Source: a virus. From it: a stretch of DNA of 39,791 bases. The notes below the pieces were generated by a model. It had not been told where the DNA came from and did no database searches. It was given only the letters and a program-made list of their open reading frames with translations. Where the stretch lies: positions 1-39,791 of IMG/VR virus record IMGVR_UViG_3300025168_000214. One strand, written 5' to 3'. Position numbers and translations under genes: made by a program. Below, piece after piece: positions 1-34,950 of this stretch (its first letter is position 1; the number at the start of each line of letters is the position of its first letter).

Positions 1-3000
1 CTTACTGCAGAAGCTTGAGGTCTAGCTGTTAATACAAATATATCTCCACTACCAAACTTATCTTGACGTTTTAAAGCAAGATCTGCTAATGGACCTTTTC
101 TACCTTTAACAACTTTTTCAAATTCTGTAAAATCAAACTCTGCTCCATTTTGTTCTAACAACTCTGCCTCGCTCGCGAACTGAGCTGGGCTTATTTTAGT
201 AGTAGTACCATCAGGCATGTTAACAATAACCATGCTTTTACTAAAGGCTAATGTATCATCAAAATCAAATACACTTATACCTTTTCTTTTCTTGCTCGCT
301 TTATTCCCAAGCTCTACTGTTTTGTCTGCGTTACCCATAGCTTCAATAGAAGCTTCTGTTGTACTGTTAGGAGTTATTAAGTTAAATAAAGTTTTTTGAT
401 TTACATTAACTTTCTTAGATGATTTTTGATTTACTACTTGAGAATCTTTTAATTCTGCTTTAGCACTTTTAATGCTTTTAGGTTCTTTTAATACAAAAGT
501 ATTATTTTCTTTATATACACCTAAAATTTCTTTAAGTAATTTGTTTTGAAAGCTAATACTATCAGGATTTCTTAATGATTTATCTAAAGGTAAACCTAAG
601 CTTTCAGCTATGGTCATTACTTTTCCATCTTTATAAGTAACGTATTCATTTAAGTTTATATTAGGATTACCTAATAAATATCTAACCCAAACGTTTGGTT
701 TGTCCATATTCCAAAACTCACTAGGAAACTGAGAAGTGTAACCAGCTTTTCCAACTATAACGTCATCTGTTTTTAATAACTGACCTTGAATGTAGTTGTC
801 TTTTATTAAACTAAAATCTTTATTGACAGTATTGTTATATATAAGATCAACTGCTATTTTAGCTGCGTTGTTAGCAGGCATTAAATGTTCTGCAACATAG
901 TTTAAAGGATTGCCAGAGACTACTATACCATTGACTTCTCTATAACCTTCAACAAATGTACGTTTAGGCATTTTAGATAAAGAAAAGAATTCAATAGGAG
1001 CTAAAACTCTCATCACATGTTTTGAATTGTTAACTTGACTATTCATCCAAGAAGCCCAGAACTCCATTCTGGCTGGTATTATTTTTCCGTCTTTTCTTAC
1101 GTTTTTATTTATAACGTTAAGTATCTTTTTTAATATTTTACTTTTTTCCGCTTGGTTGTCTCTAAATTTTTTATCTCTTAATAATTCTATTCTTTTTTCT
1201 GGACTTAATTCCGCGTATTGACCTTGTTCTGATTCTGCTCTTTTTAATACGACAATATCTTTAGCGCTTAATGAAGAGCCTTTTTTAAGTTTATCTTTAT
1301 CTAAAAACTTATCATTGCCAATAGTTTTAGTATATTTTTTTACATATTCTGGATTAGCCTCAATGAATGCACCAGTTAAAGGAGCGTTAAGCAAATCTTT
1401 TAATTGATCAATATTGTTACCAGCATTGAAATTAAATATAGTTCTTCCGCTACCTGCGCCGAAAGAATCTGAACTTCTTGTTTTTCCACTTTTAGGATTA
1501 GTAAACTCATAAAAATCTAAACCAAGCTCAGGTATAGTCAAGAGCACGCTTTCGTTTCTTGCTTTTATTTGATCATCAGTGAATTTATCGTGTTCAAATT
1601 TTTGACCTTTTATCGCGTACATTTTAAAACCTCTGTCTGACATATAATCTTTAATACTAGGCCCAACAATTGTTGCAGATCTTTTATATTTTTTACTAGC
1701 TTTAACCACGTCTAACGAAGTATCCTCTACTGTTCTTGCGTCTAACTTATTTTCAATGTTTTGCATAAACTCTTGAGAAGTAATACCTTGATTACCTAAA
1801 GACGTTTGTAGCTTGTCCATGAAAGTTTTATCTGACATAAGCTCTTGCATAGATTCTAAGGCAAAGTCAGTAGCTAGTATATTATATAAAGACTGTTGTC
1901 TTTTTTCTCCTGCTAAGAAATAATCTTTAAATTGTTGTAAGCCTTCACTTGTTATTTTAGGTACACTAAAAACTGGTTTATTAAAATAGCTGGGTTTACC
2001 TGTTTTGCTTATTTGTTTAGTCTTAGTAGTTCCTGTTTGTTTTATTCCAAATAATTTACCAAATCTTCTTTTAATTGTTGCAACTGGTAATGATTTAATA
2101 AAGTTTTTATCTAAAGAATTTACAAAGTCTTTATATGTTTGACTAGAAAAGGTTCCTATATCTTTTCTAAGTTTTTTAAAGTAGTTTTGTTTTGCTTCAT
2201 TAGCTATAGTTCTAGCTGTATCCGCAGCATTGTTACCTTTGTTAGCAGACAGCAATACATCTTTAGAAACCTCTTCTTTTATAATCGCTTTAGTTTCTGC
2301 TGTGTCTAAATTACCAACTTGATTTGTATTGGAAGAGTATACTTTTTTTCTTTGTGTATTCTCTCTACTTTCTACTTCGTCAAACTCTCTTTGCTCTGTT
2401 TGGTCTGCTACTTGTTTAGCTTGCTCAGAATCTAAACTTAAAGATTCGCCTTTTCCTAAATTAGCTTTAGCAACTCCACCAGCTCTTAAATTAAACTTAC
2501 TTGAAATTGAAGAACCAGCTCCAGTTCCAGTATCTCTATCGGAATCATATTCTACTAACGCTTGCACGTATTCGTTTTCTAAAGCTTTTTTAAATTGATC
2601 TCTTGTTAATAAACTACCTTGTCTCCATAATCTTTGAGTTGCTGCTTCTATAACTCCGCCTGCGGCTTCTACAGCTTTCTTTTGGTCAAACCTATTAGTG
2701 GCCTCAAAGTCTGGATCAGCAAATAATTCATTTGTTTTATCAAAACTTTGACTGCTTTTAGAATCAGTGTCACGTTTCTTTATATCTTCAGTTTTGTATT
2801 CTCTTTTAATTAAATCACCTTCTGCTCTACCTTCAAAAAGTTTATCTTGAGCTTTTGTAAATTCACCTTTTTCTACGCTTTTGTTATAGCCTTTTATAAA
2901 CTTATAAACATCTCTACCATTATTAAATCTAATATCTGATTCACGACCAATTAAAGAGTTAAATATTCTACTAAAAAATTCTCCTATTTGTTGACCGTAA

Positions 3001-6000
3001 CTTCCGTCAAAAGCGGATTTATCAATAGCTCCGTCTAATACAGCCTCAGAAAATAAAGTCAATACTTCTTCAGCTTGCTGTTCGTTAGTAACATTTGGAT
3101 CATCTTTATATTGTTGTATTCTACCGGCTAAACCAGAGTCTTTAATTAGTTTAGGATCAATTTGATTTAAATATTCTACTAAACTGTTACCTAAAGCTAT
3201 AGCTGTTCCTTTACTATTTCTTACAGTATTCCAAAGTACAGCATGTAAAAACTCATGAGCCGCAGTATTAATTGCTCCATCTTTTAATATTTGTGTATCA
3301 TTAAGTATTATTACTTGTTGATCTCCTTTTTGAAATATAGTACCATAGTTAGTTTTTAAACCCTTTGAAGCTGCTATTTTCCATCCTTCTTCTTTTAATT
3401 TATCTATTTGAGTTTCAACACCTGCATCATCTTTGCTACGTATTATTTTTACTTTAGCGTTTTCGTTGTTGTTTATTATATCAGTTACGTTACCCACTTG
3501 ATCTATGTAAGCATTTTTGTCTTTAGCTTGTAAAATAATACTTTGTAATGCAAATGAAACGTTACCTAACTCTTCTATTTCAGCAGAAGTTATATCTTTA
3601 TCATTAACCTTTTCTATATACTCTTGAAGTTTCTTTTTTCTTACCATCAAATCTATAGCTGCATCTCTGTTTGTGCCGTCTAAATTTTCAGGAAGTTTAA
3701 AACCAATGTTTCTATAATGAGAAATAATTTCAATTTGTTCGCTACCTTGTTCTTTAGTAACTACATTATTTTTAATGTCTAATTGTATTTTTGAAATAGC
3801 GTCTTTGTAGAAAAGTTCAACTGCTGCAGCGTTTCCTTTTTGATTAAATCTAGATGCTATTTGAGCAGATATTTGACCAAGTTCTATAGCTGATTGCTGA
3901 GTTACCATACCAACTATAGGTAATGCTTTAGCTATTCTTCTACCTTTTTTAGCTCCTTCAAAATCAAATTCACCAGAAGACACAGCGTCAAATACACTCA
4001 TTCTTCCTCCTTGTAATTTTTGATTTATATCTGAAATCATACCTTGAGTTCCTTCAACTATATATTCACTAAGTCCAGCTAACTCTCTAGCTGTTAAAAA
4101 AGTAGGTACTGTTGCTAAATATTTTTTCCATTGACCACGAACCACAGAAGCAACTCTTTTATAACCTATAGTTCCTGCTTTTGTAATTTTACCTAAAGAA
4201 AATCTTTCCATACCAAATTGAGCACCAGTACTAATAACATTAGCTATAGTGTTTATAGAATCAGGATCTTCTAATTCTGCCATGTAGTCTGCAGTAGTTG
4301 GTATATAATCTTCTCCTTTTCTTTCTTTAATTTTATCATCTAACACAGCCCACATATCACCTGTCATTGTCTTTGCTACTATATCAGCACTACCTAAAAC
4401 ATCTAATACAGTACCCACTGCATAAGCATAAGGGTTTTTAGTTTGTTTTAAGGCCATACCACCAAACATGAACACCATGTTTGACTGATCTATCAACTCG
4501 TTAACTAAACCTAATGTACTGCTATCGTCTCCTAGCGCTGGCACTAAAGATATTCTATAGTTAGCGTCAACACTTGCGCTAATATTTTCTGCTAATTTTT
4601 TACTATTTACCTCAAATCTAGTGTCGTATTCTTTTGTTAATTCGTCTAATGTTTCTTCGCCCTTAGGACGAAGTGATATAACACTGTCTCCAAAATTTCC
4701 TTCTGTGTTCCATACGTTTGCCTGCTTTACCACCGCGTTAAATAAACTAGCAGCGGTATGTCCACCACCACCTTTTAAAGTCTTACCGTTGAATTTATTT
4801 TCATCATACCAAGATCTAAATTCTACTTCGTTCATATCACCTAATCCGTTTGCCTTAATAGTTTCCTGGTACTTATCTAAAACTTGAGAGCTATTCGCTA
4901 AACGAGATTGTCTACTTGCGTTAGGCGTGGTGAAAATTAAATTCCTCATAGACTGCTTCCACTTAGTATATGAATTACTTCCTGTGTTTCTTAATTTATA
5001 CCACCAATCAGAGTAGGTTCCGTCTTTAAGTTTTTCATCTAACTCTTTAAACGTCGGATCTTTAGTTCTTCCAAAGTCTGTATATATACTTTCTAAAACT
5101 TTTTGAGTAGCGTATTGATATTCTAAGCCTCTTTCTTCAAAATCACTTGAATCTAATAAACTAACAAATCTTTCTTGTTGCCACTTCTCATATTCAGAAT
5201 TAATTTGGTCTAATTTGCCAGGATCATTAAGTGATCCATCAGCTTTAGCAGCGTCAATTAATTCAATATACTTTGCATTTGTTTCATTTTGTAAATTTAA
5301 ATTAGCCTCTGTTATTGTTTTTATGTTAACAGGATCGTTATTTACAAGTGTAGTAGTAAAATTAACAGCAGCATCTAAATAACTTTCCCAATCAGCATAA
5401 TCACTATATTTTAAATTACCTAATATTTCTTCTCTTACATAAGTAAAAGCTTCAGGACTTAGTTCAAAGTAATTATTTAAAGTGTTTAAATCATCTAAGT
5501 TTTCATAACCAGTGCCAGTTCCACTTTCTTTAGGAATTCTAACAAGTCCTATCATTGATTCATTAAATTTATCTACTTCTTCTTTAGTGGTAAAGTTTTC
5601 ATACTGCCCCGAATAAAGATCTACCATGTCTTTTGTTATTCCTTCTGGTAAAATACCAGCTTCAACATTTAATGATCTAGCAAGGGCTTTTAATTCTGCT
5701 TTTGGAAATTTTGATGATCTTTCAAATGATTCAAACGAAGGATCATCTGGATTGTCGTCAATCCATTTGTTATACGGGTCAGTAAGTAGCTCAGTTCTTT
5801 TCTTTTGAAATTCAGTTTCTATTCCACCTTCAGAAACATCACCAACACTTTCATCAAAATATTTTTTAATAACTGAAAACTGATCATAGTTTAATTTATC
5901 AACAGATACTTCAGCAGGCAGTTCATTGTAATCACTTTCTTTTGGTGTTAATATTTTAGGTAACTCTTCAAGATCTTTATTGATTTGATTCATTGTTCCT

Positions 6001-6500
6001 TCTACGTCAATTGCTTGGGTATCTTTAAAATCAAGAGCTAATGACTTATCTTTATTTACCAAACCTGTTCTAACTTGATCTCCTACACTTATTGTAGAGT
6101 AATCAAATTTTAAAGGATTTTTTTGAATTTCACTTATTTCATTTAATATCTCTTGAGTCTTAATATAAAAGGGATTTTCTTTAGGATTTCCTATAGTAGT
6201 AACGACAGGAACCATTCTTTCCTCCAAGTCATAATCCCCTCTATTTAGTTGTTCGTTATACTTTGGATTCGTTTGATTTAAGAAATTAGATAAAAAATTA
6301 TCACTATAAACGTTAGTTTTTTCAACAAATTCAGGTACCATTTCAATAACTTGCTGTGGTTCTTCAACTTCTATAGCAACTGGGCCTATAACTGTTTGTT
6401 CTTCTTCGTCTAACTTTTCTTCTTCTTCTGTATTAAAAATATTATTTAATAAATCTAAAGAGCTGTTTTCTTGGAAATTAAAATCGTTTTCTTCTTCCAT
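1..6500 (-). CDS. Giant virion/polyvalent protein with HExxH metalloprotease motif and C-terminal HAD-like domain (partial)
   Basis: An uninterrupted frame starts with ATG at 6498-6500 (leader AAATAAAATTAT, A-rich, no Shine-Dalgarno) and runs off the left edge after 2,166 codons, so the C-terminus is missing. The N-terminal ~70 residues are very acidic. HEFLH at residues 1082-1086 is a zincin motif; a helix with EEV (1144-1146) and E1152 could give the third zinc ligand. Near the window edge, DFDDT (2079-2083) matches HAD motif I (DxDxT) and VLTARP (2156-2161) matches HAD motif II; motifs III and IV would lie outside. The rest is Lys/Asn/Gln-rich and I do not recognise it. It ends the virion gene block after internal-protein candidates, so an ejected or capsid-internal protein is likely. 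The domain mix resembles phage polyvalent proteins. Motifs are seen directly; the role is inferred. Confidence 0.85.
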   Translation of the reverse strand, partial: MEEENDFNFQENSSLDLLNNIFNTEEEEKLDEEEQTVIGPVAIEVEEPQQVIEMVPEFVEKTNVYSDNFLSNFLNQTNPKYNEQLNRGDYDLEERMVPVVTTIGNPKENPFYIKTQEILNEISEIQKNPLKFDYSTISVGDQVRTGLVNKDKSLALDFKDTQAIDVEGTMNQINKDLEELPKILTPKESDYNELPAEVSVDKLNYDQFSVIKKYFDESVGDVSEGGIETEFQKKRTELLTDPYNKWIDDNPDDPSFESFERSSKFPKAELKALARSLNVEAGILPEGITKDMVDLYSGQYENFTTKEEVDKFNESMIGLVRIPKESGTGTGYENLDDLNTLNNYFELSPEAFTYVREEILGNLKYSDYADWESYLDAAVNFTTTLVNNDPVNIKTITEANLNLQNETNAKYIELIDAAKADGSLNDPGKLDQINSEYEKWQQERFVSLLDSSDFEERGLEYQYATQKVLESIYTDFGRTKDPTFKELDEKLKDGTYSDWWYKLRNTGSNSYTKWKQSMRNLIFTTPNASRQSRLANSSQVLDKYQETIKANGLGDMNEVEFRSWYDENKFNGKTLKGGGGHTAASLFNAVVKQANVWNTEGNFGDSVISLRPKGEETLDELTKEYDTRFEVNSKKLAENISASVDANYRISLVPALGDDSSTLGLVNELIDQSNMVFMFGGMALKQTKNPYAYAVGTVLDVLGSADIVAKTMTGDMWAVLDDKIKERKGEDYIPTTADYMAELEDPDSINTIANVISTGAQFGMERFSLGKITKAGTIGYKRVASVVRGQWKKYLATVPTFLTARELAGLSEYIVEGTQGMISDINQKLQGGRMSVFDAVSSGEFDFEGAKKGRRIAKALPIVGMVTQQSAIELGQISAQIASRFNQKGNAAAVELFYKDAISKIQLDIKNNVVTKEQGSEQIEIISHYRNIGFKLPENLDGTNRDAAIDLMVRKKKLQEYIEKVNDKDITSAEIEELGNVSFALQSIILQAKDKNAYIDQVGNVTDIINNNENAKVKIIRSKDDAGVETQIDKLKEEGWKIAASKGLKTNYGTIFQKGDQQVIILNDTQILKDGAINTAAHEFLHAVLWNTVRNSKGTAIALGNSLVEYLNQIDPKLIKDSGLAGRIQQYKDDPNVTNEQQAEEVLTLFSEAVLDGAIDKSAFDGSYGQQIGEFFSRIFNSLIGRESDIRFNNGRDVYKFIKGYNKSVEKGEFTKAQDKLFEGRAEGDLIKREYKTEDIKKRDTDSKSSQSFDKTNELFADPDFEATNRFDQKKAVEAAGGVIEAATQRLWRQGSLLTRDQFKKALENEYVQALVEYDSDRDTGTGAGSSISSKFNLRAGGVAKANLGKGESLSLDSEQAKQVADQTEQREFDEVESRENTQRKKVYSSNTNQVGNLDTAETKAIIKEEVSKDVLLSANKGNNAADTARTIANEAKQNYFKKLRKDIGTFSSQTYKDFVNSLDKNFIKSLPVATIKRRFGKLFGIKQTGTTKTKQISKTGKPSYFNKPVFSVPKITSEGLQQFKDYFLAGEKRQQSLYNILATDFALESMQELMSDKTFMDKLQTSLGNQGITSQEFMQNIENKLDARTVEDTSLDVVKASKKYKRSATIVGPSIKDYMSDRGFKMYAIKGQKFEHDKFTDDQIKARNESVLLTIPELGLDFYEFTNPKSGKTRSSDSFGAGSGRTIFNFNAGNNIDQLKDLLNAPLTGAFIEANPEYVKKYTKTIGNDKFLDKDKLKKGSSLSAKDIVVLKRAESEQGQYAELSPEKRIELLRDKKFRDNQAEKSKILKKILNVINKNVRKDGKIIPARMEFWASWMNSQVNNSKHVMRVLAPIEFFSLSKMPKRTFVEGYREVNGIVVSGNPLNYVAEHLMPANNAAKIAVDLIYNNTVNKDFSLIKDNYIQGQLLKTDDVIVGKAGYTSQFPSEFWNMDKPNVWVRYLLGNPNINLNEYVTYKDGKVMTIAESLGLPLDKSLRNPDSISFQNKLLKEILGVYKENNTFVLKEPKSIKSAKAELKDSQVVNQKSSKKVNVNQKTLFNLITPNSTTEASIEAMGNADKTVELGNKASKKRKGISVFDFDDTLAFSKSMVIVNMPDGTTTKISPAQFASEAELLEQNGAEFDFTEFEKVVKGRKGPLADLALKRQDKFGSGDIFVLTARPQASAV

Positions 6501-6510
6501 ATAATTTTAT

Positions 6511-8061
6511 TTAAGAATATTGTTTCAATGCTTCAATTAACTCTGGAGATTGCTCTGTAGGTAAATCTTTAATTTCTTCTGGTAGTTTTTGATAGAACAA
6601 AGTCATTCCTGCTTGCCACTCTTTAATACCTAGCATGTTTCTATAAAACTCAGGTATAGGCATTTCATTATCATTTAAAGCTTTTATTAAGTCTTGGCCT
6701 TGTTTTTTCTCGTCACTTAAAGTTTCTTTTATTATACTAGGTTCGTTTGCTATATTTTTTTGAGGTAGTTTTCTATCTAAGTTGGCTTGTAAAATAATAC
6801 TCATTAGATAAGCTCTTTGAGCATCTACCATAGCTACGTTTTGATCTCCATAACCTGTTTTATTAAAAGCGTATCTATTACCTACAAATCCAGCTTTACC
6901 TTCAGGATCTAATTCATCATAAAGCTTCGCTAATTCAGGAGATACTTCTTCGTTTATACCTAATGGTAAATCTATACCTAATCTTTTGTTAGAATAACCA
7001 GATAACACAGATATGTGTCCACTTGCTACTGCAAATAAACCAGAAACGTGAGCTCTTACTTCTGCATTATAAGCTGGGTTGTTGTCTATAAACTCTGTTA
7101 CAATTGGTTTTACTAAGTATTGTTTTAGTTTTCCATTAGCTACAGAATATATAGGTATTTTTATAGAAGTATCTTTTGCAACATCGTTAGGATCTTCTGA
7201 AACAACAGAACCACCTAGAAAAAACTGTGGCTGTAATGTAGCGTTTGTAGTTATACCAGCGTCTTCAAAAGTTGTTTGTAAGTTCATAGCTTCAGGAACT
7301 GTACTAATAAATAAAGATAACAATTCGTCATTATCTAACTGAGAAGAGTCTATTTCATTGTATATAATATAAAACATGTTACCGTTAGTATCATATTTAA
7401 TGTTTCTTTTTTTCAAAAAATCATCCATTACATAAGGAACGTTGTGAAGGTATTTTCTAAAAGTTTCGCCTTTAACTAAAAACTCCATGCTTTGTGTAAA
7501 TACTATTATCTCTTCACTTTCTGTTTCTCTAAAATAAAAGTTTTTCTCAACTTTAACATCTCTAAAATAATCAAAAAGATTAGACCAAGCTGCCATAGAA
7601 AACATGTTCTTATCTTTATTTCTTTCTGTAGTTCCATTTATATTTATAGATCTATATTCACTAATAAATAATGGTAGGTTTTGAGGATTAGTTCTATCGG
7701 TGGCTTGAGCTAAATATCCACCTAAAGTGATAGATTTATCTAGTCTACTAAAGTATTCTTTTATAAATTTTTTATCTTCTTTAATTTCACTTTGACCTAA
7801 GTTTTTAACTTCTAGTTTTAGTTTTGTTTGCCTAGCTATAACTCCTTCTACGGGTCTTTGTGCTAGATCAATAAAATAATCTTTTATTATGTTAGCTAAA
7901 GTTTTATCTTCATATGGATTTTCAGAAGATGAACTACTCATGTAACTTCTGTATTTGTTACTGGCATCGGTGAAAAAGTTTAGTTCTTTGCTTCTGCGCG
8001 TTTGCGAAACATTAACTAATCTATTCATTTTATCGTTATGACCTTTTAATACTGTATTCAT
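6511..8061 (-). CDS. Putative internal virion protein, unknown family (516 aa)
   Basis: Complete 516-residue frame starting ATG at 8061 behind an A-rich leader (AAACTATAAAAAAA). No catalytic motif, signal peptide or membrane segment is evident; the composition is charged and mixed alpha/beta. Residues ~310-420 include a VRAHVSGLFAVASGHISVL-like stretch that looks like a packed helix and a YAFNKTGYGDQNVAMVDAQRAYL segment that suggests a folded, not fibrous, protein. It lies between the Ala-rich internal-protein candidate and the giant protein, 10 bases before the latter's start. That position corresponds to the internal core/ejection proteins of short-tailed phages. I do not recognise the family; the virion assignment rests on context only. 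Confidence 0.75.
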   Translation of the reverse strand: MNTVLKGHNDKMNRLVNVSQTRRSKELNFFTDASNKYRSYMSSSSSENPYEDKTLANIIKDYFIDLAQRPVEGVIARQTKLKLEVKNLGQSEIKEDKKFIKEYFSRLDKSITLGGYLAQATDRTNPQNLPLFISEYRSININGTTERNKDKNMFSMAAWSNLFDYFRDVKVEKNFYFRETESEEIIVFTQSMEFLVKGETFRKYLHNVPYVMDDFLKKRNIKYDTNGNMFYIIYNEIDSSQLDNDELLSLFISTVPEAMNLQTTFEDAGITTNATLQPQFFLGGSVVSEDPNDVAKDTSIKIPIYSVANGKLKQYLVKPIVTEFIDNNPAYNAEVRAHVSGLFAVASGHISVLSGYSNKRLGIDLPLGINEEVSPELAKLYDELDPEGKAGFVGNRYAFNKTGYGDQNVAMVDAQRAYLMSIILQANLDRKLPQKNIANEPSIIKETLSDEKKQGQDLIKALNDNEMPIPEFYRNMLGIKEWQAGMTLFYQKLPEEIKDLPTEQSPELIEALKQYS

Positions 8062-8079
8062 TTTTTTTTATAGTTTATT

Positions 8080-8763
8080 TTATCCGAATAACCCTCCCCA
8101 AGCGTTACCATATTCTTCTTCAGCTTCCGCGGTAGCTTCTCTTATTTTGTTTTCAGCTGCTTGAGCTCCTATAAACATAGAGGTATATCTATTTAAATCC
8201 CCGTTTGATCTTGCTTCTTGAGCCTGGAACTCGAATATTTCTCCTTTAGCATCAGCCTCTTCTTTTCTACCTTTTAATTGAATAGTAGCTTGATCATAAG
8301 CTTGACTAGCTGCTACTTTTTCTCTATTCATTTGCGCTTCACCTTGAGCTCTTAACTGATCGTTAGCTGCTTCTTGTTTCTCTATAGTTGCAGCAACAGT
8401 TTGTTTAGATTTTAAAGCTGCCATTGCTAAAGCAGTAGCACCACCTGCGCTTGCTCCTGTTTGTTCTAAGGTATCTAAAGTGTTAGCTAAAGCTATATCT
8501 GTTTCTTCCGCTTGCATTTTAGCCGCTGCAGTAGATACAGTTAAATTATTAAATGGGTTAGTTATTTGACTAGTTAAATCTCTAGCTAAACCAGACAAGT
8601 CAGTTATACCAGCGTAAGGATTAATAATATCCTGACGACTGTTTAACGAGTCGTTCATTTTTGCTTCAGCAGCATTAGTTCTGTTTCTAGCATTGTTGAG
8701 CTCCTCTCTTGCTTTTGCTTGGCCTTTTTTTGCGCCAATGATTTTACCTATTTTTTTACCCAT
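8080..8763 (-). CDS. Putative internal virion protein, Ala/Gln-rich coiled coil (T7 gp14-like role)
   Basis: A 227-residue protein with a basic N-terminus (GKKIGKIIGAKKGQAKAREE), then long helical Ala/Gln/Glu-rich stretches (about 10-50 and 90-220) and a short glycine-rich end (AWGGLFG). The middle NPYAGITDLSGLARDLTSQI and the TLEQTGASAGGATALAMAALKSKQ region resemble a family I associate with internal or ejection proteins of marine podoviruses. Size and composition are close to the small core protein of T7-like phages (gp14 class), which helps build the DNA-ejection channel. It sits 2 bases after the GNAT-like gene and before the two larger internal candidates. The role is inferred from composition and position. 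Confidence 0.7.
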   Translation of the reverse strand: MGKKIGKIIGAKKGQAKAREELNNARNRTNAAEAKMNDSLNSRQDIINPYAGITDLSGLARDLTSQITNPFNNLTVSTAAAKMQAEETDIALANTLDTLEQTGASAGGATALAMAALKSKQTVAATIEKQEAANDQLRAQGEAQMNREKVAASQAYDQATIQLKGRKEEADAKGEIFEFQAQEARSNGDLNRYTSMFIGAQAAENKIREATAEAEEEYGNAWGGLFG

Positions 8764-8765
8764 TA

Positions 8766-9170
8766 CTATATTTTTTTTGCTATCTCATAAGATGATTTGT
8801 TGTCTACATCCCATCCTAATTTCTTATGTGTGTTTATTAAGCTTTGATTTCTACCTATTGAAAACATGTATTTTTTACCTTGTTCTTTGCATATAGTTTC
8901 TATTGTTTTTAACAACATTTCTATTGCGTCTTTTCTATCATGTTCTTTATACTTAGGGTTAGATACTATCCACTCAACAAACACAGCGTCAGAATTAGTA
9001 TAATATATAAACCCTGCCACTATAGGTGTATTTTCTTTTTGTATCATTATTCCACTAGTACCATTGTCTGGTAGAAAGTTTTTAGGAATAGTTGGCCAAC
9101 GCCACCATTTCCACCAATCAACCAATACATTATAATCTGTATCGATTAATTTTCTTGCATTTAATTTCAT
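8766..9170 (-). CDS. GNAT-like acyltransferase-fold protein in the tail cluster
   Basis: A 134-residue protein with the outline of a GNAT N-acetyltransferase: an N-terminal strand-helix (RKLIDTDYNVLVDWWKWW), a beta pair (GIMIQKENTPIVAGFIYYTN, then AVFVEWIVSNP), a long helix (DRKDAIEMLLKTIETICKEQ) and a final NQSLINTHKKLGW segment like GNAT motif B. The usual acetyl-CoA pyrophosphate loop (R/QxxGxG/A) between strand 4 and helix 3 is absent or badly degraded (KYKEHDRKDA). It lies between two structural genes with gaps of only 2-4 bases, so it is co-expressed with the tail. GNAT-fold proteins inside podovirus virion clusters are known; whether this one is catalytic or structural is open. Confidence 0.65.
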   Translation of the reverse strand: MKLNARKLIDTDYNVLVDWWKWWRWPTIPKNFLPDNGTSGIMIQKENTPIVAGFIYYTNSDAVFVEWIVSNPKYKEHDRKDAIEMLLKTIETICKEQGKKYMFSIGRNQSLINTHKKLGWDVDNKSSYEIAKKI

Positions 9171-9174
9171 ATAA

Positions 9175-10611
9175 TTATCTATTATTGTAAACAGCTCCTA
9201 CGCTAAATAATTGCTTAGCGCCTGTTCTGTCTGTAAAATCGTCTTCAGCAAACGTAACAACTAGATACTGTCCTTTTAATCCACTAGACTTATTACCTGG
9301 TGTTATTACTTCTTCTGCTACACTTAAACTATCATTTTTTATAGCAGCATAATATATGTTTTGTTTTCTATCAAAACCAGCTCTATATTGTACACCGCTG
9401 TTAGGGTCTACATAATAACCCTGATCGTAACTTAGTATACCTAAATTTTGATTAGTGCTAGTAGTATTGCCTAGGCCAGGTTGTTGAGGGTTTTCATCAG
9501 TTCCAGTGTAATCATTTGTTATACTTTGAACTTTCCATCCATTACTACCTGTGTAATTTATTGTTTGAAATGTTTTTGTTCTAGTTGGTTGTGGGTTAAA
9601 GACAAACTTCACTCTTGATACATTTGGTATTCCGTAAAACTGATTGTAAACAAAACCGTCATAATGTTTCCATAACGCATTGTTTTTAAATGTATAATAG
9701 TTTCCTCTTAAACTAGTTGAAAGTTCTGGTACATATGACATAAAACTAACCCAACCGTTTATTAAATCATCAAAAACAAGAGTTTGTGTTTCTATTGTAC
9801 ACACGTAATTCTTTTGATATACATCATAACCTCCTACTATTCCTGTAAAAGTACCAGTATTCAACGCGTCTCTAAAATAATCAATCATACCAAAGTTAGA
9901 TATCTCAGTAAGACCATTGGGACCAAGCTGCATAGCGACTCCTCTATCTCTATCAGTAAAATATTTATTATAACCATAAACAGCAAACGAACCAGGATCT
10001 CTTGATATGCCAAAGTTACCTTCAAAAGCACTTGGTGTTCCTATTACTAATCTACTGTTGCTATTTAAAGGTTGACCTTCTTGAGTAAATATAACGTCTT
10101 TATCTATAGGCGCTCTGTTAACTTTTCTTTCTTGAAATATTACTAGATTAGTATTTTCAGCATAGAGTTTTTGTATACTTCCTGAAGCAGGATCTACACT
10201 TCTAGTTATATCTTCTCCTATTGGAAACTCATTAGTATTGTTAATACCATTTTTAGCATTGTATACACCTGAGTATATTAGTGAGCTTTGTCTTCTAGTT
10301 TGACTAGCTTCTTCTTCAACTATATAAGCTTTAACTCCAAAATCTACAGAAGTATTATTAAAACCTCCTTTAATTCTTGACTCTTCAACAAACCAGTCTT
10401 CATATATGTTAGCACTAGGCTCAGTACTACCAGTTGCGGGTATAACATAACCTTCTCCAGTAACTGGATCAGGTGTACCAGTAGTTATACCACCACCTAT
10501 ACCTGCGGCCAATAACGTTCCGTCTGCTTCTCTTTCTTGGTATTGATTAATATTTTTTAATCTTTTCAACCAGAACGTGTTAAAGTATGATACCTCTAGT
10601 GTAGTCGCCAT
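9175..10611 (-). CDS. Tail structural protein (478 aa), probable tail-tip/stabilisation component
   Basis: A 478-residue, beta-rich, Gly/Asn/Tyr/Thr-rich protein without signal peptide or membrane segment. A middle segment (QTLVFDDLINGWVSFMSYVPELSTSL, followed by NYYTFKNNALWKHY) has the repetitive beta-blade look of tail stabilisation or muzzle proteins, where short hydrophobic strands carry NGWxSF/LWKHY-type motifs. It lies 30 bases after the 1,669-residue tail protein and before the GNAT-like gene. It may work with that larger protein as a separate C-terminal part of the tail hub; in related phages the equivalent region can be in one polypeptide, but I cannot test that here. It is confidently a structural gene; the exact part is inferred. 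Confidence 0.7.
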   Translation of the reverse strand: MATTLEVSYFNTFWLKRLKNINQYQEREADGTLLAAGIGGGITTGTPDPVTGEGYVIPATGSTEPSANIYEDWFVEESRIKGGFNNTSVDFGVKAYIVEEEASQTRRQSSLIYSGVYNAKNGINNTNEFPIGEDITRSVDPASGSIQKLYAENTNLVIFQERKVNRAPIDKDVIFTQEGQPLNSNSRLVIGTPSAFEGNFGISRDPGSFAVYGYNKYFTDRDRGVAMQLGPNGLTEISNFGMIDYFRDALNTGTFTGIVGGYDVYQKNYVCTIETQTLVFDDLINGWVSFMSYVPELSTSLRGNYYTFKNNALWKHYDGFVYNQFYGIPNVSRVKFVFNPQPTRTKTFQTINYTGSNGWKVQSITNDYTGTDENPQQPGLGNTTSTNQNLGILSYDQGYYVDPNSGVQYRAGFDRKQNIYYAAIKNDSLSVAEEVITPGNKSSGLKGQYLVVTFAEDDFTDRTGAKQLFSVGAVYNNR

Positions 10612-10641
10612 ATATTTATTATTACTTGTTTTCTTTCATTA

Positions 10642-18640: not shown

Positions 18641-20098
18641 TTATACTCCTTGGAATAATACGAAGTTGTTAGCAGCTTGAGTTACTAAACATCTTTCTGA
18701 TAGGAAGTTAACTTCCATAGCATCAAGATCACTAGTAAATGCTCCACCAACGGATCCTGTTAACCAAGATTTCATTCTTCTATCATCAGCATTAGACGCT
18801 CTATATCTTACGTGTAAGAAAGGTCTACGGATGTTAGTTCCTAAAATTTGATCATATACAGTTGTTGTACCAGCTGGGATTAATACTCCTTCAATAGAAG
18901 CAGGTCCAGTCATACCACCACGCGTTGAAGCGTCGTTTAAGTATTTCCAGTCTGTTTTATAAAAGTCATAAGAACCTCTTCTGAAACCGCTAAAACCTAA
19001 GTTTAAAGCCATTTCTTCTGAGTTTTCAAATAATCCATAAGCAGTACCACCAGCTTGACCAGCAGAGATTTGAGCTAACATATCATCAAAATCTAGAGCA
19101 GTTTGTCTGTCTAAAAATAACATGTTTTCTTCAATAGCTCCCTGAGTATCTAAGTTTCTAAGAATATCATCAAAGTCACTTATTCCAGTAGCAGCGCTAA
19201 ATCCAACCTGTACGTTACCTCTTGCTTGTATAGCAGCGAAAAGACCTTGCGTACCTATTTGTCCATTTGCCAAAGCAGCAGAACCAGCAGCAGCGATCTC
19301 ACCTTCTACACACATCATTTCTAGGTAATCCTCAAATCTTAGTCTTGTTTCAGACTCAGCTTTTAGGTACCATAAGTAACCACCAGTTCCATCTTCAGTA
19401 GCAACTTCTACCCAACCGATCTGAGCAGTGTCAGAACCGTTAACAGTATATTTACTTCTAATGATTAATGGGTTGTTAGAGAATTGAGTGAATGAAGGAG
19501 TAACACTAATATAACCAGCAGGCGCTGTAGCAGCGTTGTAGTTAGGTGTTGTTGATCCTTTTGCATATTCAGAACCGTATACAAATACTTTTACAGCACC
19601 TACTAATCCAGATCCTGCTAAGTTAGCAGCTGTGTAAGGTTGTACAGTAATTGTTCCAGCAGCACCAGGTACACTAGCACTTACAAAACATTTTGCTTCT
19701 GCGCCAAAGTCATCCATGATAACAACAGTTGAGTTTACAGAAATAACGTTAGTTACTCCCGCAACTGCACCTGGGTTAACAGTTACAACTCCTGTAGCAG
19801 ATACAAATGTACAGTTATCATATGCAATATGTAATCTATTTTGTTCAGACCAGATTACTTGGTCACTTGTCATTGGTAATTCAGCACCGACCATTCTTAA
19901 GAAACCAGATAACGTTCTGTTACCATATCTTTCTACTTCTTGTTCGTAAATTTCAGGTAGATATTGCGCTGCAAAATCACTGAAATTAGCTGGTATACCC
20001 GCACCACCACCATTATTTGTCCATTGCAAATAATTAGTAGCTAGCAATTGTTGAGTTTGCGAAGGTACTAAACTTCCAAACTGTGGGGTTAAAGCCAT
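18641..20098 (-). CDS. Major capsid protein (HK97-fold, 485 aa)
   Basis: A 485-residue protein placed after portal and scaffold candidates. The N-terminus has PEIYEQEVERYGNRTLSGFL (~49-68), the spine-helix type region of HK97-like capsids. The middle carries an Ala/Gly/Thr/Val-rich beta region (~100-200) resembling an inserted surface domain. The C-terminal half has RLRFEDYLEMMCVEGEIAAAG, an FDDILRNLDTQGAIEENMLF motif and a final segment (RRPFLHVRYRASNADDRRMK, then SDLDAMEVNFLSERCLVTQA). That ending is, as I recall it, diagnostic of capsid proteins in marine Bacteroidota podoviruses and resembles crAss-like MCPs in length (~490). The gene is noticeably GC-richer than its neighbours, typical of very highly expressed phage genes. 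It is followed by a strong hairpin. Start: AACTAAAATT directly before ATG. Confidence 0.88.
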   Translation of the reverse strand: MALTPQFGSLVPSQTQQLLATNYLQWTNNGGGAGIPANFSDFAAQYLPEIYEQEVERYGNRTLSGFLRMVGAELPMTSDQVIWSEQNRLHIAYDNCTFVSATGVVTVNPGAVAGVTNVISVNSTVVIMDDFGAEAKCFVSASVPGAAGTITVQPYTAANLAGSGLVGAVKVFVYGSEYAKGSTTPNYNAATAPAGYISVTPSFTQFSNNPLIIRSKYTVNGSDTAQIGWVEVATEDGTGGYLWYLKAESETRLRFEDYLEMMCVEGEIAAAGSAALANGQIGTQGLFAAIQARGNVQVGFSAATGISDFDDILRNLDTQGAIEENMLFLDRQTALDFDDMLAQISAGQAGGTAYGLFENSEEMALNLGFSGFRRGSYDFYKTDWKYLNDASTRGGMTGPASIEGVLIPAGTTTVYDQILGTNIRRPFLHVRYRASNADDRRMKSWLTGSVGGAFTSDLDAMEVNFLSERCLVTQAANNFVLFQGV

Positions 20099-21373: not shown

Positions 21374-23770
21374 TTAAGCTTGAGGCATTACGCTCTCTTG
21401 GCTTTGTTGTTCAAAATTAGTAGGCATTAAATCATTTTGTCTTTGATCTATCATAGCACTTTGCTGTGACCCTGCTATTCTTGTTCTTTTATCTTTACGA
21501 TCTTCTATTTGTGCTTCTCTATTTGTTTCTCTTTGACCTTTCATTTGCTCTAACTGAATTTGATAGTTAAACTCTTCAGCCATTAATTGACGTTTGATTT
21601 CAGCCTCGCTTCTCATACGTTCTATTTCCATTTGAGATTTAGCTTGTTCAAAGTTTATTTTTTGATTAGTTAAAACTTCTTGCTTTTGTACTTCAGATTC
21701 TGCAGCTGCTTGAGTAGCTTGAGTGTTGGCTGACGCTTGTTGTTGAGCCATGTCAGCTTGCATTTGTCTTTCGTAAGCTTGTTTCTTTTTACGTTTTACT
21801 TTTAGCATTTGATTAGCTAATTTTAAACTACGTATTTGACGTATTTCAATAGCGTCTTCTAAATCAATACCACCACTTGATAATGCAACTTGTATGTTTT
21901 GTTCTAGTTGTTGTTTTTCTTCGTCGTCTGGTTCAAGATCTAAGAAAATACCAAAATCATGTAAGTTTAACTTATCAACTTCTTTTAAAGTAATACTATT
22001 AAAATTAGTTATACTATTCTTTAATGAGTTAGCTGTTAAAGGATAATCTAACATATCACTAACTTTTTTAGATATGTTTTCACACATTCTTAAGGTTAAG
22101 AATAAACTACTATTGTTAATATGCTTAGTAGCAATATTAGATGCGTTAGCTGCCATTTTCTGTAAACCTACCAGTGTATCTCTATCTGGAACAGAGCCAT
22201 CTCTAGCTTCACTTAACCCGGTTACATCACGTATCATTTGTAAATAATAATTATACGTAGATATTAAGCTTTGTATCTTCGCTTGTCCAGAACCTGTAGA
22301 TAATTCTTGAACAGGTATTTTACCTCTATTTATATCACCATCTTGTGTTAAAGATCTACCTACAACAGAACCTGTTTGAAAATACATATTCAAAGCTTCT
22401 GCTGGATTATAGTTTGTTCCATTACCTAGATCAACTTCTGCTAAACCGTCCATATCTAAGAATACACCGTCTGGTACCATTCTAGCTATTACTTGTTGTA
22501 GTTTAAGATGTGTTATCTGTATCATATCAGCAAAACCAGTAATTCTACCTACTGTAGACTCTATTCTACCTTTATACATACGTGGTGCACAAATAGCATA
22601 ATTCATTTCTACTTTTGTAGTATCAGCTTTTGGTCTAGTCATATTAGGACACATTTCCCATCTTAACATTATATCAGTACCTAAAACTTTAACTCCTCTG
22701 TAAAGAGTTTCAATAGTTCTACCAACTCTTTCAAACATGTCACTTTCTGGTGGATTAAAAGTATCAGGTTTTTCTAATGCTTTTTCTAATCCATATTCTG
22801 TTTCTTTTATTTTAAATACCTGCTCACTATAAGTTTTGTATTCAAAATATAATAATGGAACAGTATTTTGATCCCACGGACCATTACCATAACCATACAT
22901 GTAACTTCTGTTACCTTGTTGTTGTTGTATTTTTTCTAATGTAGAATTATCTAATGTAGGAAATTGCTTTGCTATTTCAGCTAAAGTAACTGGTTTTAAT
23001 TCACCTACATAATATATATCTTCAAAATTTGGATCTTCTGTGTAAGAATATATTAAATACGCTGGATCAACATAATCAACTGTTATACCATTAGAAAGAT
23101 TAAAGTTAGTTTTACAAGCTCCAATACCACATGTAACTAAGTCGTAATTAACTCTTCTTTTAGTTAATTCCCATCTGTTTGAATCCAGCACTTGATTTAT
23201 TACTTCTTCTTCTGCAATTTCTATAGACTGCTTATAACTTAACTGCATGTGTAACTCTAACTCAGTTTCATCTGAAGGTAACTTGCTTTCTGGAATTGTT
23301 GTGTTGAATAAAGAAGCATCAAGTTTGTTTACTATTTCTTCCATTGTTTGTCTAGCAAAAATATCTTGTGCTAGCATTTCAGCATAGTTAGTTCTTTTTT
23401 CTAAAGATTCAGGATCCTGGGCAAATGCGTTTATTTCGTAATTTCTACTAGAAATACCATTAACTAATATATCTACAAATTTAGATATAATAGGAACTGG
23501 TTTCCAGTCTAAATTAAGATAAGACAAATCACCATTAATAGATAACTCATCTTTATATTTTTCTACAGGTTGTTCGCCTCTTGCGTATAATCTTAATCTG
23601 TTGTAATTATTCCAAGTGGTTAAGTATCTGTTACCATTAGTTCTACCTTGATTAAACCACTCCTGCTCTATAGCCTGTGCAACCTGCGTGCCATACTCTA
23701 AAGTAGCTTTTTCGCCGTCACTAACAACTTGGCTAGGAAATGTACTATTAGTATTATAATTTATCTTCAT
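21374..23770 (-). CDS. Portal protein (798 aa)
   Basis: A 798-residue protein whose first base directly follows the terminase stop codon. The N-terminal region has LYARGEQPVEKYKDEL and YLNLDWKPVPIISKFVDIL (~55-105), which I recall from portals of crAss-like and related podoviruses. The middle includes YDLVTCGIGACKTNFNLSNG and a long wing/stem region containing MARMVPDGVFLDMDGLAEVD-type strands. The C-terminal ~150 residues form a Gln/Met/Glu-rich coiled coil (ERQMQADMAQQQASANTQAT), the expected barrel or crown extension inside the capsid. The portal forms the dodecameric DNA entry vertex and motor-docking site. Length (~800) fits the large portals of this group. Position after TerL and before scaffold and capsid confirms the role. 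Confidence 0.88.
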   Translation of the reverse strand: MKINYNTNSTFPSQVVSDGEKATLEYGTQVAQAIEQEWFNQGRTNGNRYLTTWNNYNRLRLYARGEQPVEKYKDELSINGDLSYLNLDWKPVPIISKFVDILVNGISSRNYEINAFAQDPESLEKRTNYAEMLAQDIFARQTMEEIVNKLDASLFNTTIPESKLPSDETELELHMQLSYKQSIEIAEEEVINQVLDSNRWELTKRRVNYDLVTCGIGACKTNFNLSNGITVDYVDPAYLIYSYTEDPNFEDIYYVGELKPVTLAEIAKQFPTLDNSTLEKIQQQQGNRSYMYGYGNGPWDQNTVPLLYFEYKTYSEQVFKIKETEYGLEKALEKPDTFNPPESDMFERVGRTIETLYRGVKVLGTDIMLRWEMCPNMTRPKADTTKVEMNYAICAPRMYKGRIESTVGRITGFADMIQITHLKLQQVIARMVPDGVFLDMDGLAEVDLGNGTNYNPAEALNMYFQTGSVVGRSLTQDGDINRGKIPVQELSTGSGQAKIQSLISTYNYYLQMIRDVTGLSEARDGSVPDRDTLVGLQKMAANASNIATKHINNSSLFLTLRMCENISKKVSDMLDYPLTANSLKNSITNFNSITLKEVDKLNLHDFGIFLDLEPDDEEKQQLEQNIQVALSSGGIDLEDAIEIRQIRSLKLANQMLKVKRKKKQAYERQMQADMAQQQASANTQATQAAAESEVQKQEVLTNQKINFEQAKSQMEIERMRSEAEIKRQLMAEEFNYQIQLEQMKGQRETNREAQIEDRKDKRTRIAGSQQSAMIDQRQNDLMPTNFEQQSQESVMPQA

Positions 23771-25987
23771 TTAATCTATAATTTTTGATAATGAACCACT
23801 ATTGTCGTATTTTTTTATACCTAAATCATACGTTTGTTTAATCAACTTAGGAACTGGTCTATATTTATTTTTATTACATGCCATAATAGCTAAGCCTGAA
23901 CTAATAGAAGCATCATGCGATGTTCTGTTATTTATATTGAATTTTGCCCAGTCTTCTAATGTTCTTTGGAAATACATATCCCCATAGTTAAGATTTTCTA
24001 GTAAACCAACTCGCTCTTCTATATAAGATTCTATAGCTGCAGCGTGAGCTTGTTTTATATCTTCGCTTGAATTTGGTATACCACCTATTTCTCTTTCTGT
24101 TACTGATAACTTGTTATATATTTTATCAGGTCTATTCATTGCGTAAGCTCTATAACCTCTTCTTTTAAAATGATACAGTAATCTAGGTTTGTTATTTTCT
24201 GCTAATATTGGCATACCATAAAAAACACAAGCCATAAGTACGTCTTCAAAAAACATTTCTGCGGTTTGAGGTCTAGCTATATATTCTAAAAAGAAATGAT
24301 TAGGTGGAACATCTTCCATACTAAACTTAGTTAAACCGTGTAAAGATCCGTTAGAACCTCTACCGTCTACTGTTCCTGATATATCATAACTATCACAACC
24401 AAAAGCTCCTAAGTTTTCATTACCAGGATGTTTTCTTCCTAACTTGTTAATTATATTGTTTTGTAATCTTTGAGGTGGAACCCATGATACAAAAAATCTA
24501 CCACTTTTATTTGGAACAAATATTACACTTGTATCTTTTATACCTCCTGTCCAAGCAAAAGAACCTTGAGTTACAACGTTACTATGTTTTATATCTGCGT
24601 TCCAATCAACTTGTTGATATATTCTAGTTAAGTTAAATAAAGAGTTTTTAGATTCATCTCTAAACGCGTGTTTAGTTGTGCGGGGAAACTGTCTATAAAA
24701 CTCATTTAAAGCATCTTGATCTTCGCTTAAACCGTCTACTTCATTTTTCCAATAGTCTAATACTCCTAGTTTAATTTTTTGTCCGTGAGGATCTTCCCTA
24801 GGTTCTTTGGGTGTTTCGAATACAGGTACGCCATAAGAATCAATGTATCCTTCGTAGTTCCATTCCATAGGTATGAACAAACTATAGAGTCCGCTACGCG
24901 TTTGTCCATTTGCATTTCTTTTGTTAACATCTGAACTTTCATATAATTTTTTAAAATTTCCACCACCTTTATCTAAAGCGTTTGATGTTGATCCCATCAT
25001 ACACTTGCCAATAATTCTAGATCCTAATCTTAAACATGTCTTTGTAACTCTCCAGTTGTTTAAAATATTATTAGGTCTTTCCCATTTACCAGATTCATCG
25101 TGTACTAATAGTTTTAGTTTTTCACCATCATAACTGTTATCACCAGTATTTTTCCAATCAATTGTTGTGTCTAGTCCTTGTAACTCTGCCGCAACTTCTC
25201 CACTTATAATTTTTCTTCGTGTAAATTTAGAAGCTGGTACTCTATATGCTAGCTCTGTTTTAGGTCGATCCATACCATCTTGAATCGGTTTAAAAAAGAA
25301 AGGATAATTAACTGATATTGGTACTACTTTGTCAGTAAACATAGTTTTAGCATCAGGACCTGTTTTAGATAATATACCATATCTTGAATCACTAGATATT
25401 GTAGCTAAATTAACAACTTCTCCTGAAGCCATAAATGAAAAACCAGATCTACGGTTTTTTAAATAACACATGCCATAACATCTAACATCTGCTTTACAAG
25501 CTTCCCAGAATATAAAGAATAATCTATTCGCTTCTCTAAAGTCTGGTGGCCCAACATCAATCTTACTCCATTGTAAATACATGTAATGTGTTCCAGTCAA
25601 GTATAAATCTTTATCACCGTTTTTAAACCAAAAACCTTCTTCACGTCTAGTAAATTCTATATCAATAAAATCATACCATCTTTCTTTGAAATCTTCTGGA
25701 TATTTATCCCACTCAAAAACACTTTTAATTTTTTTAAGAACTTTAGGTAATGGTGTTCTTTTCCATTTACCATCTTCAAAAGCATGTATTTCTTTAGGCT
25801 TACTAGGAACTCCAATTTTTAAACCTTGTATTTCGTATATATCACCTACAGTTCCGTCTTTACTTATAACTACAAAGTCATGTTCCTCATTATAACCATA
25901 TTCCCATTTCTTATACTTATTATTTCGTTTAAGAATTTTTGGTTTAACGTGATCTTTTAATATAATATATAAACTTTGCTCGTACAT
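23771..25987 (-). CDS. terL: Terminase large subunit (738 aa)
   Basis: Packaging motor ATPase/nuclease of 738 residues. The adenine/Walker A-like segment is YLKNRRSGFSFMAS (P-loop variant KNRRSGFS, 177-184), preceded by DLYLTGTHYMYLQWSKIDVG and FFIFWEACKADVRCYGM. Walker B is LKLLVHDESGKW (291-302; D297, E298). A coupling motif MGSTSNAL lies at 331-338. The nuclease domain begins near GAFGCDSYDISG (D532) with a later catalytic Asp in RTSHDASISSGLAIMA. The variant P-loop and long N-terminus match crAss-like/Bacteroidota podovirus terminases as I recall them. It overlaps the preceding 92-residue gene by one base (ATAATG) and abuts the portal gene. High confidence. Confidence 0.92.
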   Translation of the reverse strand: MYEQSLYIILKDHVKPKILKRNNKYKKWEYGYNEEHDFVVISKDGTVGDIYEIQGLKIGVPSKPKEIHAFEDGKWKRTPLPKVLKKIKSVFEWDKYPEDFKERWYDFIDIEFTRREEGFWFKNGDKDLYLTGTHYMYLQWSKIDVGPPDFREANRLFFIFWEACKADVRCYGMCYLKNRRSGFSFMASGEVVNLATISSDSRYGILSKTGPDAKTMFTDKVVPISVNYPFFFKPIQDGMDRPKTELAYRVPASKFTRRKIISGEVAAELQGLDTTIDWKNTGDNSYDGEKLKLLVHDESGKWERPNNILNNWRVTKTCLRLGSRIIGKCMMGSTSNALDKGGGNFKKLYESSDVNKRNANGQTRSGLYSLFIPMEWNYEGYIDSYGVPVFETPKEPREDPHGQKIKLGVLDYWKNEVDGLSEDQDALNEFYRQFPRTTKHAFRDESKNSLFNLTRIYQQVDWNADIKHSNVVTQGSFAWTGGIKDTSVIFVPNKSGRFFVSWVPPQRLQNNIINKLGRKHPGNENLGAFGCDSYDISGTVDGRGSNGSLHGLTKFSMEDVPPNHFFLEYIARPQTAEMFFEDVLMACVFYGMPILAENNKPRLLYHFKRRGYRAYAMNRPDKIYNKLSVTEREIGGIPNSSEDIKQAHAAAIESYIEERVGLLENLNYGDMYFQRTLEDWAKFNINNRTSHDASISSGLAIMACNKNKYRPVPKLIKQTYDLGIKKYDNSGSLSKIID

Positions 25988-29011: not shown

Positions 29012-29341
29012 CTAATATTTTTCGTATGGATCTGTTTTGCTATATGCTTCTTTTTCCCAAGGTAAATCTGGACTACCTTCGTTCATTTTGCTTCTTGGAA
29101 ATGTTTTACCTTGCCAATAAACGTTTTTATCATCGTAATCTAAGTCACCTCTTTTTACTTGATCAACATGAATTGCTTCATGTTCTATAATGCTTTCTCT
29201 CTCATTAGGATCAGTTATTTTATCAGATACTAATATAGTGCCATTTTTATTTCCTTTACCTAGTATACCTTCACCTAGATCAACTTGATACACAGGAGTG
29301 TTATCAATTTTATAAGGAGGGTTATTTAGTTTAAATGTCAT
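29012..29341 (-). CDS. Mini-metalloprotease candidate (HEAIH motif, 109 aa)
   Basis: A 109-residue protein containing IIEHEAIHVDQVKRGDL (from about residue 51): HEAIH is a HExxH zinc-binding motif, followed by Gln at a position often seen in DUF4157-like zincins (HExxHxxQ). Downstream, PWEKEAYSK offers Glu residues for the third zinc ligand (gluzincin arrangement, ~35 residues later). The N-terminal ~45 residues are strand-rich (YQVDLGEGILGKGNKNGTIL). The whole protein is a minimal zincin without signal peptide. It might process a virion protein, act on the cell wall, or be an inactive relative. No inhibitor or propeptide is visible. The motif is clear; activity and substrate are inferred. 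Confidence 0.65.
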   Translation of the reverse strand: MTFKLNNPPYKIDNTPVYQVDLGEGILGKGNKNGTILVSDKITDPNERESIIEHEAIHVDQVKRGDLDYDDKNVYWQGKTFPRSKMNEGSPDLPWEKEAYSKTDPYEKY

Positions 29342-34507: not shown

Positions 34508-34950
34508 CTGTTTTTATCTTTATTTACGTTTTGTATTGATGTTTGTAATACTTTATCTATATAGCTTTTACCTTTCATGATAGAGTTTCTTCTTTCGCTT
34601 GTAGGTATATCATCTTGACCTAACATTATTCTATATATTCTTTGAATCAATTGCTTGCCTTTAAAAGATATAGTATATATGTTATATTTTTGTGTAGTTC
34701 TATTTCGATGTCTCCACAATTTTATCCAGTCTTCTTGTAATAGTTTATTCCACCTTCGGTTATTCCAACTATAAGAATACACGCCCATTTTAAAATCATT
34801 AATTGTAAAGTAATCAATACAATCTAAGTAAATAAGTAATTCTAACTCTGCATCAGTTAAATCGTTGTTCTTGGAAGCCCATCTGCGTATTATACGGTAA
34901 TGTTTTAGCAAGTTTATATCTTTGATATCTCTTGCGTCTAGCTTTTTCAT
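34504..34950 (-). CDS. Winged-helix/MarR-like DNA-binding protein (148 aa)
   Basis: A 148-residue protein. KHYRIIRRWASKNNDLTDAE, LELLIYLDCIDYFTINDFK and a recognition-helix candidate (SWNNRRWNKLLQEDWIKLWR), then a wing (HRNRTTQKYNIYTISFKGKQ, LIQRIYRIMLG), fit a winged helix-turn-helix of the MarR/replication-initiator kind. I recall similar proteins in marine Bacteroidota phages. It overlaps groES by 4 bases and the 135-residue gene by 4 bases, so it is translated with the chaperonin genes. It may regulate late transcription or bind DNA during packaging; it could also be a structural protein with a DNA-binding role. The fold is inferred by pattern only. Confidence 0.6.
   Translation of the reverse strand: MKKLDARDIKDINLLKHYRIIRRWASKNNDLTDAELELLIYLDCIDYFTINDFKMGVYSYSWNNRRWNKLLQEDWIKLWRHRNRTTQKYNIYTISFKGKQLIQRIYRIMLGQDDIPTSERRNSIMKGKSYIDKVLQTSIQNVNKDKNR

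Follow-up and report, generated by a model that had tools for sequence, protein, structure and literature searches.

We analysed a 39,791-nucleotide stretch of virus DNA (positions 1 to 39,791 of IMG/VR record IMGVR_UViG_3300025168_000214; the window hereafter) and found that its left end encodes a giant multi-domain protein. Its domains follow one another in the order N-terminal region, zincin, sigma-70 region-2-like domain, mid region, HAD phosphatase and helical C-terminal module. From sequence comparisons and structure predictions, we read the giant as a polyvalent virion cargo protein that may be cut by its own zincin at K-x-S-K linkers, and we give this reading roughly even odds (a probability of about 0.5). 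An earlier note on this DNA, made without database searches, had described a giant zincin and HAD protein that closes the virion block; to this we add two points, the sigma-2-like domain and the motif recurring between domains.

The giant gene occupies positions 3..6500 on the minus strand, where it starts with an ATG at 6500 and runs for 2,166 codons without a stop down to position 3. The frame of at least 2,166 residues described by the earlier note is therefore present, on a strand about which that note was silent, and it is incomplete as suspected, being open at the record edge. Since the 39,791-base record stops at the left edge of the window, this genome offers no further sequence with which to complete the gene. 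In place of the sequence further left, which had been sought, we used the closest full-length relative (L096, 66% identity over 1,883 amino acids (aa)). L096 extends 803 aa past the point at which the window protein is cut, so that a full length of ~2,970 aa is predicted for the latter. This extension supplies HAD motifs III and IV and the C-terminal helical module.

Searched as a whole, the window protein gave nothing significant against Pfam, PHROGs and PDB, and its single sequence retrieved no relatives when scanned against IMG/VR. The first homologues were obtained by scanning with the neighbouring 516-aa gene, followed by profile scans from alignments, which yielded 80 loci and then a second set of 71 giants longer than 1,500 aa from other contigs. 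The ~150 homologues recovered are mostly 2,200–3,300 aa long where complete (for instance L084 with 2,969 aa and L085 with 3,171 aa in the first set), and one scan detected at least 550 related stretches among virus contigs. In 50,697 phage records no close relative was found, the one weak match covering 20% of a query. HExxH is followed by DxDxT...LTAR, in this same order, in nearly all of the 80 homologous loci, and the motif pair in the window is therefore not a chance occurrence.

The zincin-like metallopeptidase domain was delimited to aa ~1013–1219 (2844..3464, minus) using AlphaFold2 (AF2), alignment A12 and Pfam. Its HEFLH motif is located at aa 1082–1086 (3243..3257, minus). In a 33-sequence alignment (A3), H1082, E1083, H1086 and E1145 were invariant and E1144 nearly so, which fits the Glu ligand candidates proposed earlier at 1144–1152; a separate 28-row alignment (A12) agreed on the invariant residues. 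E1145 (3066..3068, minus), which like the three motif residues is invariant in both A3 and A12, is the candidate third zinc ligand. With a pLDDT of about 80, AF2 modelled a helix, strands, the HExxH helix and the Glu helix in this order, that is, the helix and sheet that precede the HExxH helix and the Glu on the next helix by which zincin-like domains are recognized. The structure prediction thus agrees with the zincin fold anticipated by the earlier note. A Pfam SprT-like match (E 0.006) stayed below the family cut-off. Together, alignment and model support the prediction of a zincin-like metallopeptidase.

Of the HAD-type phosphatase, the window contains the N-terminal half (3..287, minus) with motifs I and II only, since the gene is cut ahead of motifs III and IV. 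Motif I, DFDDT, is found at aa 2079–2083 (252..266, minus) and motif II, VLTARP, at aa 2156–2161 (18..35, minus), so that these motifs and HEFLH are exactly where they had been reported. Their assignment to the HAD superfamily held as well, since motifs I–IV (D,D,T / T / K / D,D) do not vary among 54 aligned homologues. DUF2608, which we take to be a member of the HAD clan, matched 42 of the 54 HAD members (best E 4e-6), accompanied by weaker HAD, Acid_phosphat_B and DNA-3'-Pase matches; none of these was shown to reach a family cut-off. When a model of the HAD domain plus C-terminal module was compared with PDB using Foldseek, the HAD acid phosphatase e(P4) ranked first (E 0.6, a poor value that reflects the size and multi-domain nature of the query), and shorter viral proteins matched over a HAD-sized stretch with a TM (target) of 0.48–0.60. 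All four motifs are shared with known HAD phosphatases (class B/C acid phosphatases, DNA 3'-phosphatases, DUF2608), from which the HAD of the window family differs in being embedded in a giant virion-locus protein.

Between these domains a short K-x-S-K motif recurs. In the window protein it is present as KASKK at aa 1600–1604 (1689..1703, minus), a candidate cleavage site in a low-confidence AF2 linker with pLDDT <50 (model residues 717–734), as KSSKK at aa 2026–2030 (411..425, minus) before the HAD domain, and as KASKK at aa 2067–2071 (288..302, minus) directly before it. Directly past HAD, most proteins carry K-x-S-K or a relative of it (KASKK, KSSKK, KQSKR, KFSKT, IQFSK). With this post-HAD site masked, K[AFSQ]SK[KRST] was found 61 times in the discovery set versus 8.6 ± 2.7 times in shuffles, and once in the other proteins of the discovery loci (2.2 expected). 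In the second set, [KQR][AFSQY]SK[KRTSAQ] occurred 69 times (21.2 ± 4.6 expected), and 12 times in the other proteins of the second-set loci (6.3 expected). Clustering to 23 representatives left 19 copies versus 7.7 ± 3.0, above all 200 shuffles. The redundancy-weighted count was 30.7 versus 11.2. Weighted z-scores are overstated because related rows were shuffled independently, and we therefore used only the ratios (2.7–3.0) and the Ser-specific contrast: with T, A, G, E or N in place of Ser, the redundancy-weighted pattern was at expectation. The copies are also unevenly placed, with densities per 1,000 aa of 0.05 N-terminal of the zincin and 0.16 in the C-terminal module versus 1.55 in the zincin–sigma linker and 3.1 before HAD; the stretch past HAD is likewise dense. 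L226 has five copies (739, 1189, 1545, 1605 and 1794), which bracket its HAD domain.

Self-processing has been suggested as a role for the zincins found in polyvalent proteins, with host targeting listed as an alternative (Iyer et al. 2017, PMC5512222). In the latter case the giant would be an ejected polyvalent protein whose zincin acts on host proteins, and the K-x-S-K copies would be plain basic flexible linkers. Linkers are often rich in Lys and Ser, and N4 virion RNA polymerase (vRNAP) is packaged unprocessed even though it carries a zincin (PMC5512222). However, the motif is Ser-specific, and hardly any copies precede the zincin or fall within the C-terminal module, neither of which is predicted by ordinary linker composition. 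We consider zincin action on the host the less likely explanation, though a serious one. Besides the N4 precedent, three points speak against cleavage of the giant by its own zincin. The motif was first spotted by eye, the post-HAD copy was modelled within a continuous helix, and the flavour of the post-HAD motif did not significantly predict the flavour elsewhere in the same protein (p 0.20, 6 proteins). Giants without HExxH also tended to lack the motif (Fisher p 0.02), a result that was not relied on, since the HExxH-negative set includes N-terminally truncated copies. In the lineage of L101, L103 and L115, EELFH replaces HExxH in the zincin-like domain and ESKG replaces K-x-S-K at both HAD flanks, a possible co-change of protease and site.

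The domain resembling sigma-70 region 2 was assigned to aa ~1270–1400 (2301..2693, minus) by family homology. For the segment 150–320 residues past HExxH, two profiles were compared with PDB. Using A9, which has the window segment as its first row, 21 of 23 matches were sigma factors, aligned on region 2 (best E 6.8e-5); using A6, the best E-value was 1.6e-4. One member, L162, exceeded the curated Pfam Sigma70_r2 cut-off (27.1 bits versus 24, E 3.5e-6), and a sigma hidden Markov model (HMM) from bacterial genomes matched it at 1.4e-7, the best reversed decoy reaching 3.4 bits. Profile–profile scores against bacterial sigmas were 28–30, compared to at most 13.8 for column-shuffled controls; one score of 29.8 stood against shuffles of no more than 12.9. 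An iterated HMM detected the domain in 65 of 150 giants (~43%, the window protein included), and in 61 of 61 HExxH-bearing giants with the domain it was located between zincin and HAD.

Several results pull in the other direction. Part of the A9/A6 set had been picked by a sigma-like pattern, and with an HMM-recruited set a sigma factor still came first, at an E-value of only 0.0017. For an unselected AF2 model (window residues 880–2079), the top of the PDB list consisted mostly of sigma factors, at E-values of at least 0.3; Foldseek E-values against PDB are poor for the AF2 models because these are multi-domain. The profile of the window clade alone (A8) matched no sigma factor and PF04542 did not match the window protein, which we therefore do not class as a sigma factor: its segment is sigma-2-like through alignment to the family, not through its own sequence, and the likeness is supported at family level. 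Among the first ten members, Pfam found no Sigma70_r2. The full-length sigma HMM aligned region 2 alone in L162; region 4 was not seen, and no search directed at it was made.

The segment could be a generic helical bundle, in which case the giant would be a two-enzyme polyvalent protein. The missing Pfam match in most members, the weak Foldseek E-values and hhalign probabilities of 25–62% would all fit a bundle. The score of L162 above the curated cut-off and a list of PDB matches made up almost entirely of sigma factors, aligned on region 2, argue for sigma likeness instead, and we regard the bundle as rather doubtful. A different role is conceivable for a true sigma-like module. Region 2 is the main beta-prime-binding part of sigma, and it was seen here alone, with no -35-binding region 4; rather than being a promoter-specific factor, such a module might serve as an anti-host device that takes the place of sigma on the RNA polymerase of the host and shuts off host transcription. 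We mention this role tentatively, as an unlikely one.

The C-terminal module adds ~720 strongly conserved residues. In Foldseek searches, the L096 model (HAD plus C-terminal module) matched viral proteins annotated as PolyVal ADP-ribosyltransferase, ART-PolyVal or 'large polyvalent protein associated domain' (LPD), with E-values of about 4e-7 to 2e-5. It further matched members of its own family and, in Tenacibaculum phage Gundel_1, a structural protein. Pfam detected no LPD domain. Since the predicted C-terminal fold matches polyvalent proteins, the giant is placed in this class by fold. It also combines at least two domains of disparate activity, by which such proteins are defined (zincin, HAD and the sigma-2-like domain). 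Polyvalent membership, as suggested by the earlier note, is thus supported by the multi-enzyme architecture, the adjacency to virion genes, the fold matches and the positional equivalents annotated as structural; sequence and models support the view of the giant as a new branch of the known class. The polyvalent proteins portrayed in PMC5512222 are likewise giant multi-enzyme polypeptides encoded in the virion block, with the zincin as hub domain. In the parts covered, that paper neither names a HAD phosphatase or sigma-70 region 2, which the window family adds (the latter as a sigma-2-like domain), nor describes a recurring inter-domain K-x-S-K or cleavage motif.

The giant gene closes the virion block, as had been noted: it sits at the 3' end of a block of terminase large subunit (TerL), portal, probable capsid and tail-type structural genes that extends from 25987 down to 6511 (PHROGs). 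All on the minus strand, these include TerL (phrog_6681, 23771..25987), portal (phrog_6547, 21374..23770), a virion structural protein that is the probable major capsid protein (phrog_13704, 18641..20098), a further virion structural protein (phrog_14478, 9175..10611), a 227-aa gene homologous to the 'structural protein' gp099 of Cellulophaga phage phi38:1 (8080..8763, phmmer 1.5e-6) and, directly upstream of the giant, the 516-aa gene (6511..8061). The latter occupies the slot of the phi38:1 'structural protein' gp100 and is a probable virion or ejection partner. Among 135 loci with enough sequence, homologues upstream of the giant were found for the 227-aa gene in all 135, for the phrog_14478-type structural protein in 98 and for the 516-aa gene in 17. 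Within the block, a 134-aa acetyltransferase-like protein (8766–9170, minus) is matched by a homologue on the upstream side of the giant in 31 of the 135 loci; in phage MW202828, the gene at its slot carries an annotation as acetyltransferase subunit.

TerL is 62% identical to that of the podovirus MW202828 (Manatee Spring) and ~44% identical to those of the Flavobacterium elemo phages, followed by Cellulophaga, Tenacibaculum and Maribacter phages. The uncultured phage of the window is thus related to phages of marine flavobacteria. Family members also occur in contigs of metagenome-assembled genomes (MAGs) labelled Woesearchaeota, Aliivibrio, Flavobacteriaceae, Maricaulis, Ilumatobacteraceae and others (L249–L269), which are probably mis-binned phage contigs. 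As genome contigs offered only these MAG contigs with conflicting labels, we make no host claim.

Three related phages share this gene order and likewise have a single giant gene as its last member, of 3,859 aa in MW202828, 3,694 aa in elemoA and 1,691 aa in phi38:1. In the cultured flavophages elemoA (Elemovirus, gp21) and phi38:1 (Callevirus, gp101) it is annotated as 'structural protein'. The elemo and MW202828 giants carry HExxH as does the window giant, whereas all three differ from the window family in having no HAD, K-x-S-K series or sigma-2 match. Sequence homology of the window giant to phi38:1 gp101, elemo gp21 or the MW202828 giant was not detectable. A C-terminal homology to the three was considered, and profile comparison gave it no support; we therefore claim positional equivalence alone. 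The MW202828 equivalent (741–12320, minus) has two HEFGH motifs and no HAD; its depositors labelled it 'reticulocyte binding/rhoptry protein', probably a misannotation.

These equivalents bear on the possibility that the giant is a structural or ejection protein only, its domains being degenerate passengers of a tape-measure-like internal protein for DNA delivery. The phi38:1 gp101 protein lacks both HExxH and HAD motif, yet is annotated as structural. But the catalytic residues of zincin and HAD are all invariant across divergent homologues, which argues that selection keeps the chemistry, and we consider a purely structural role improbable.

Elsewhere on the minus strand, GroES-like (34947–35207) and GroEL-like (35191–36732) genes were identified by eye; an elemo phage has an annotated GroES adjoining TerL. 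A 109-aa open reading frame (29012–29341) has its own HEAIH motif (IIEHEAIHVDQ...) and resembles a compact metallopeptidase. A 518-aa protein without annotation (30443–31999) contains a recurring short motif of the GMSR[KE]/DERS type and a near-exact internal duplication, in which SRESSELKYMPIEDDMKRGM is present twice. Two fibre-like proteins (32002–33183 and 37106–38428) end in a DER(I/S)K...SKEDLE-type segment, and by eye these ends are reminiscent of intramolecular chaperone (peptidase S74) domains.

Computation supplied the family, the order of its domains, the conserved catalytic residues, the setting among virion genes, sigma-2 homology at family level, and the enrichment and placement of the motif. 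On the reading as a cargo protein processed by its own zincin, we infer that it is packaged and ejected, that it is cut at the motif and acts on RNA polymerase, and what HAD hydrolyses. The giant would be expressed together with the late genes, enter the virion alongside the DNA and reach the host cell by ejection. The zincin would then cut the polypeptide, in cis or in trans, at short [K/Q/R]-[A/F/S/Q/Y]-S-K linkers, which are located past the zincin, within the mid region and at either flank of HAD. The freed sigma-like module could engage host RNA polymerase and so start early phage transcription, while the freed HAD enzyme would hydrolyse a phosphoester, plausibly a nucleotide or a nucleic-acid 3' phosphate. 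The closest parallel is the N4-type vRNAP (Schitoviridae; PMC12633501), an ejected protein of ~3,500 aa that serves early transcription and has, besides an HExxH domain, a large helical domain at its C-terminus. N4 carries its own polymerase, whereas the window protein, if sigma-like, would borrow that of the host; no polymerase domain was found by Pfam, PHROG and PDB searches in the window giant or by Pfam and PHROG searches in three homologues. T4 Alt and other injected modifiers of RNA polymerase similarly enter with the DNA and redirect host transcription, but Alt is an ADP-ribosyltransferase, in place of which the window family has a sigma-like domain.

Among the domains of polyvalent phage proteins, zincins are the most frequent. 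Their self-processing has been proposed since 2017, with no known cleavage sites in the papers covered here. A Ser-dependent motif at domain boundaries makes this proposal experimentally simple. More speculatively, and with clearly less confidence than we place in self-processing, a large, uncultured and mostly marine group of phages may package a self-cleaving polyprotein that, once ejected, would release a sigma-like module and a HAD enzyme, an injected-sigma counterpart of the N4 polymerase with cleavage sites readable as K-x-S-K linkers. If true, delivery of a sigma-like domain with the virion would give a phage a third route to control of transcription immediately after entry, next to injected polymerases and injected polymerase-modifying enzymes.

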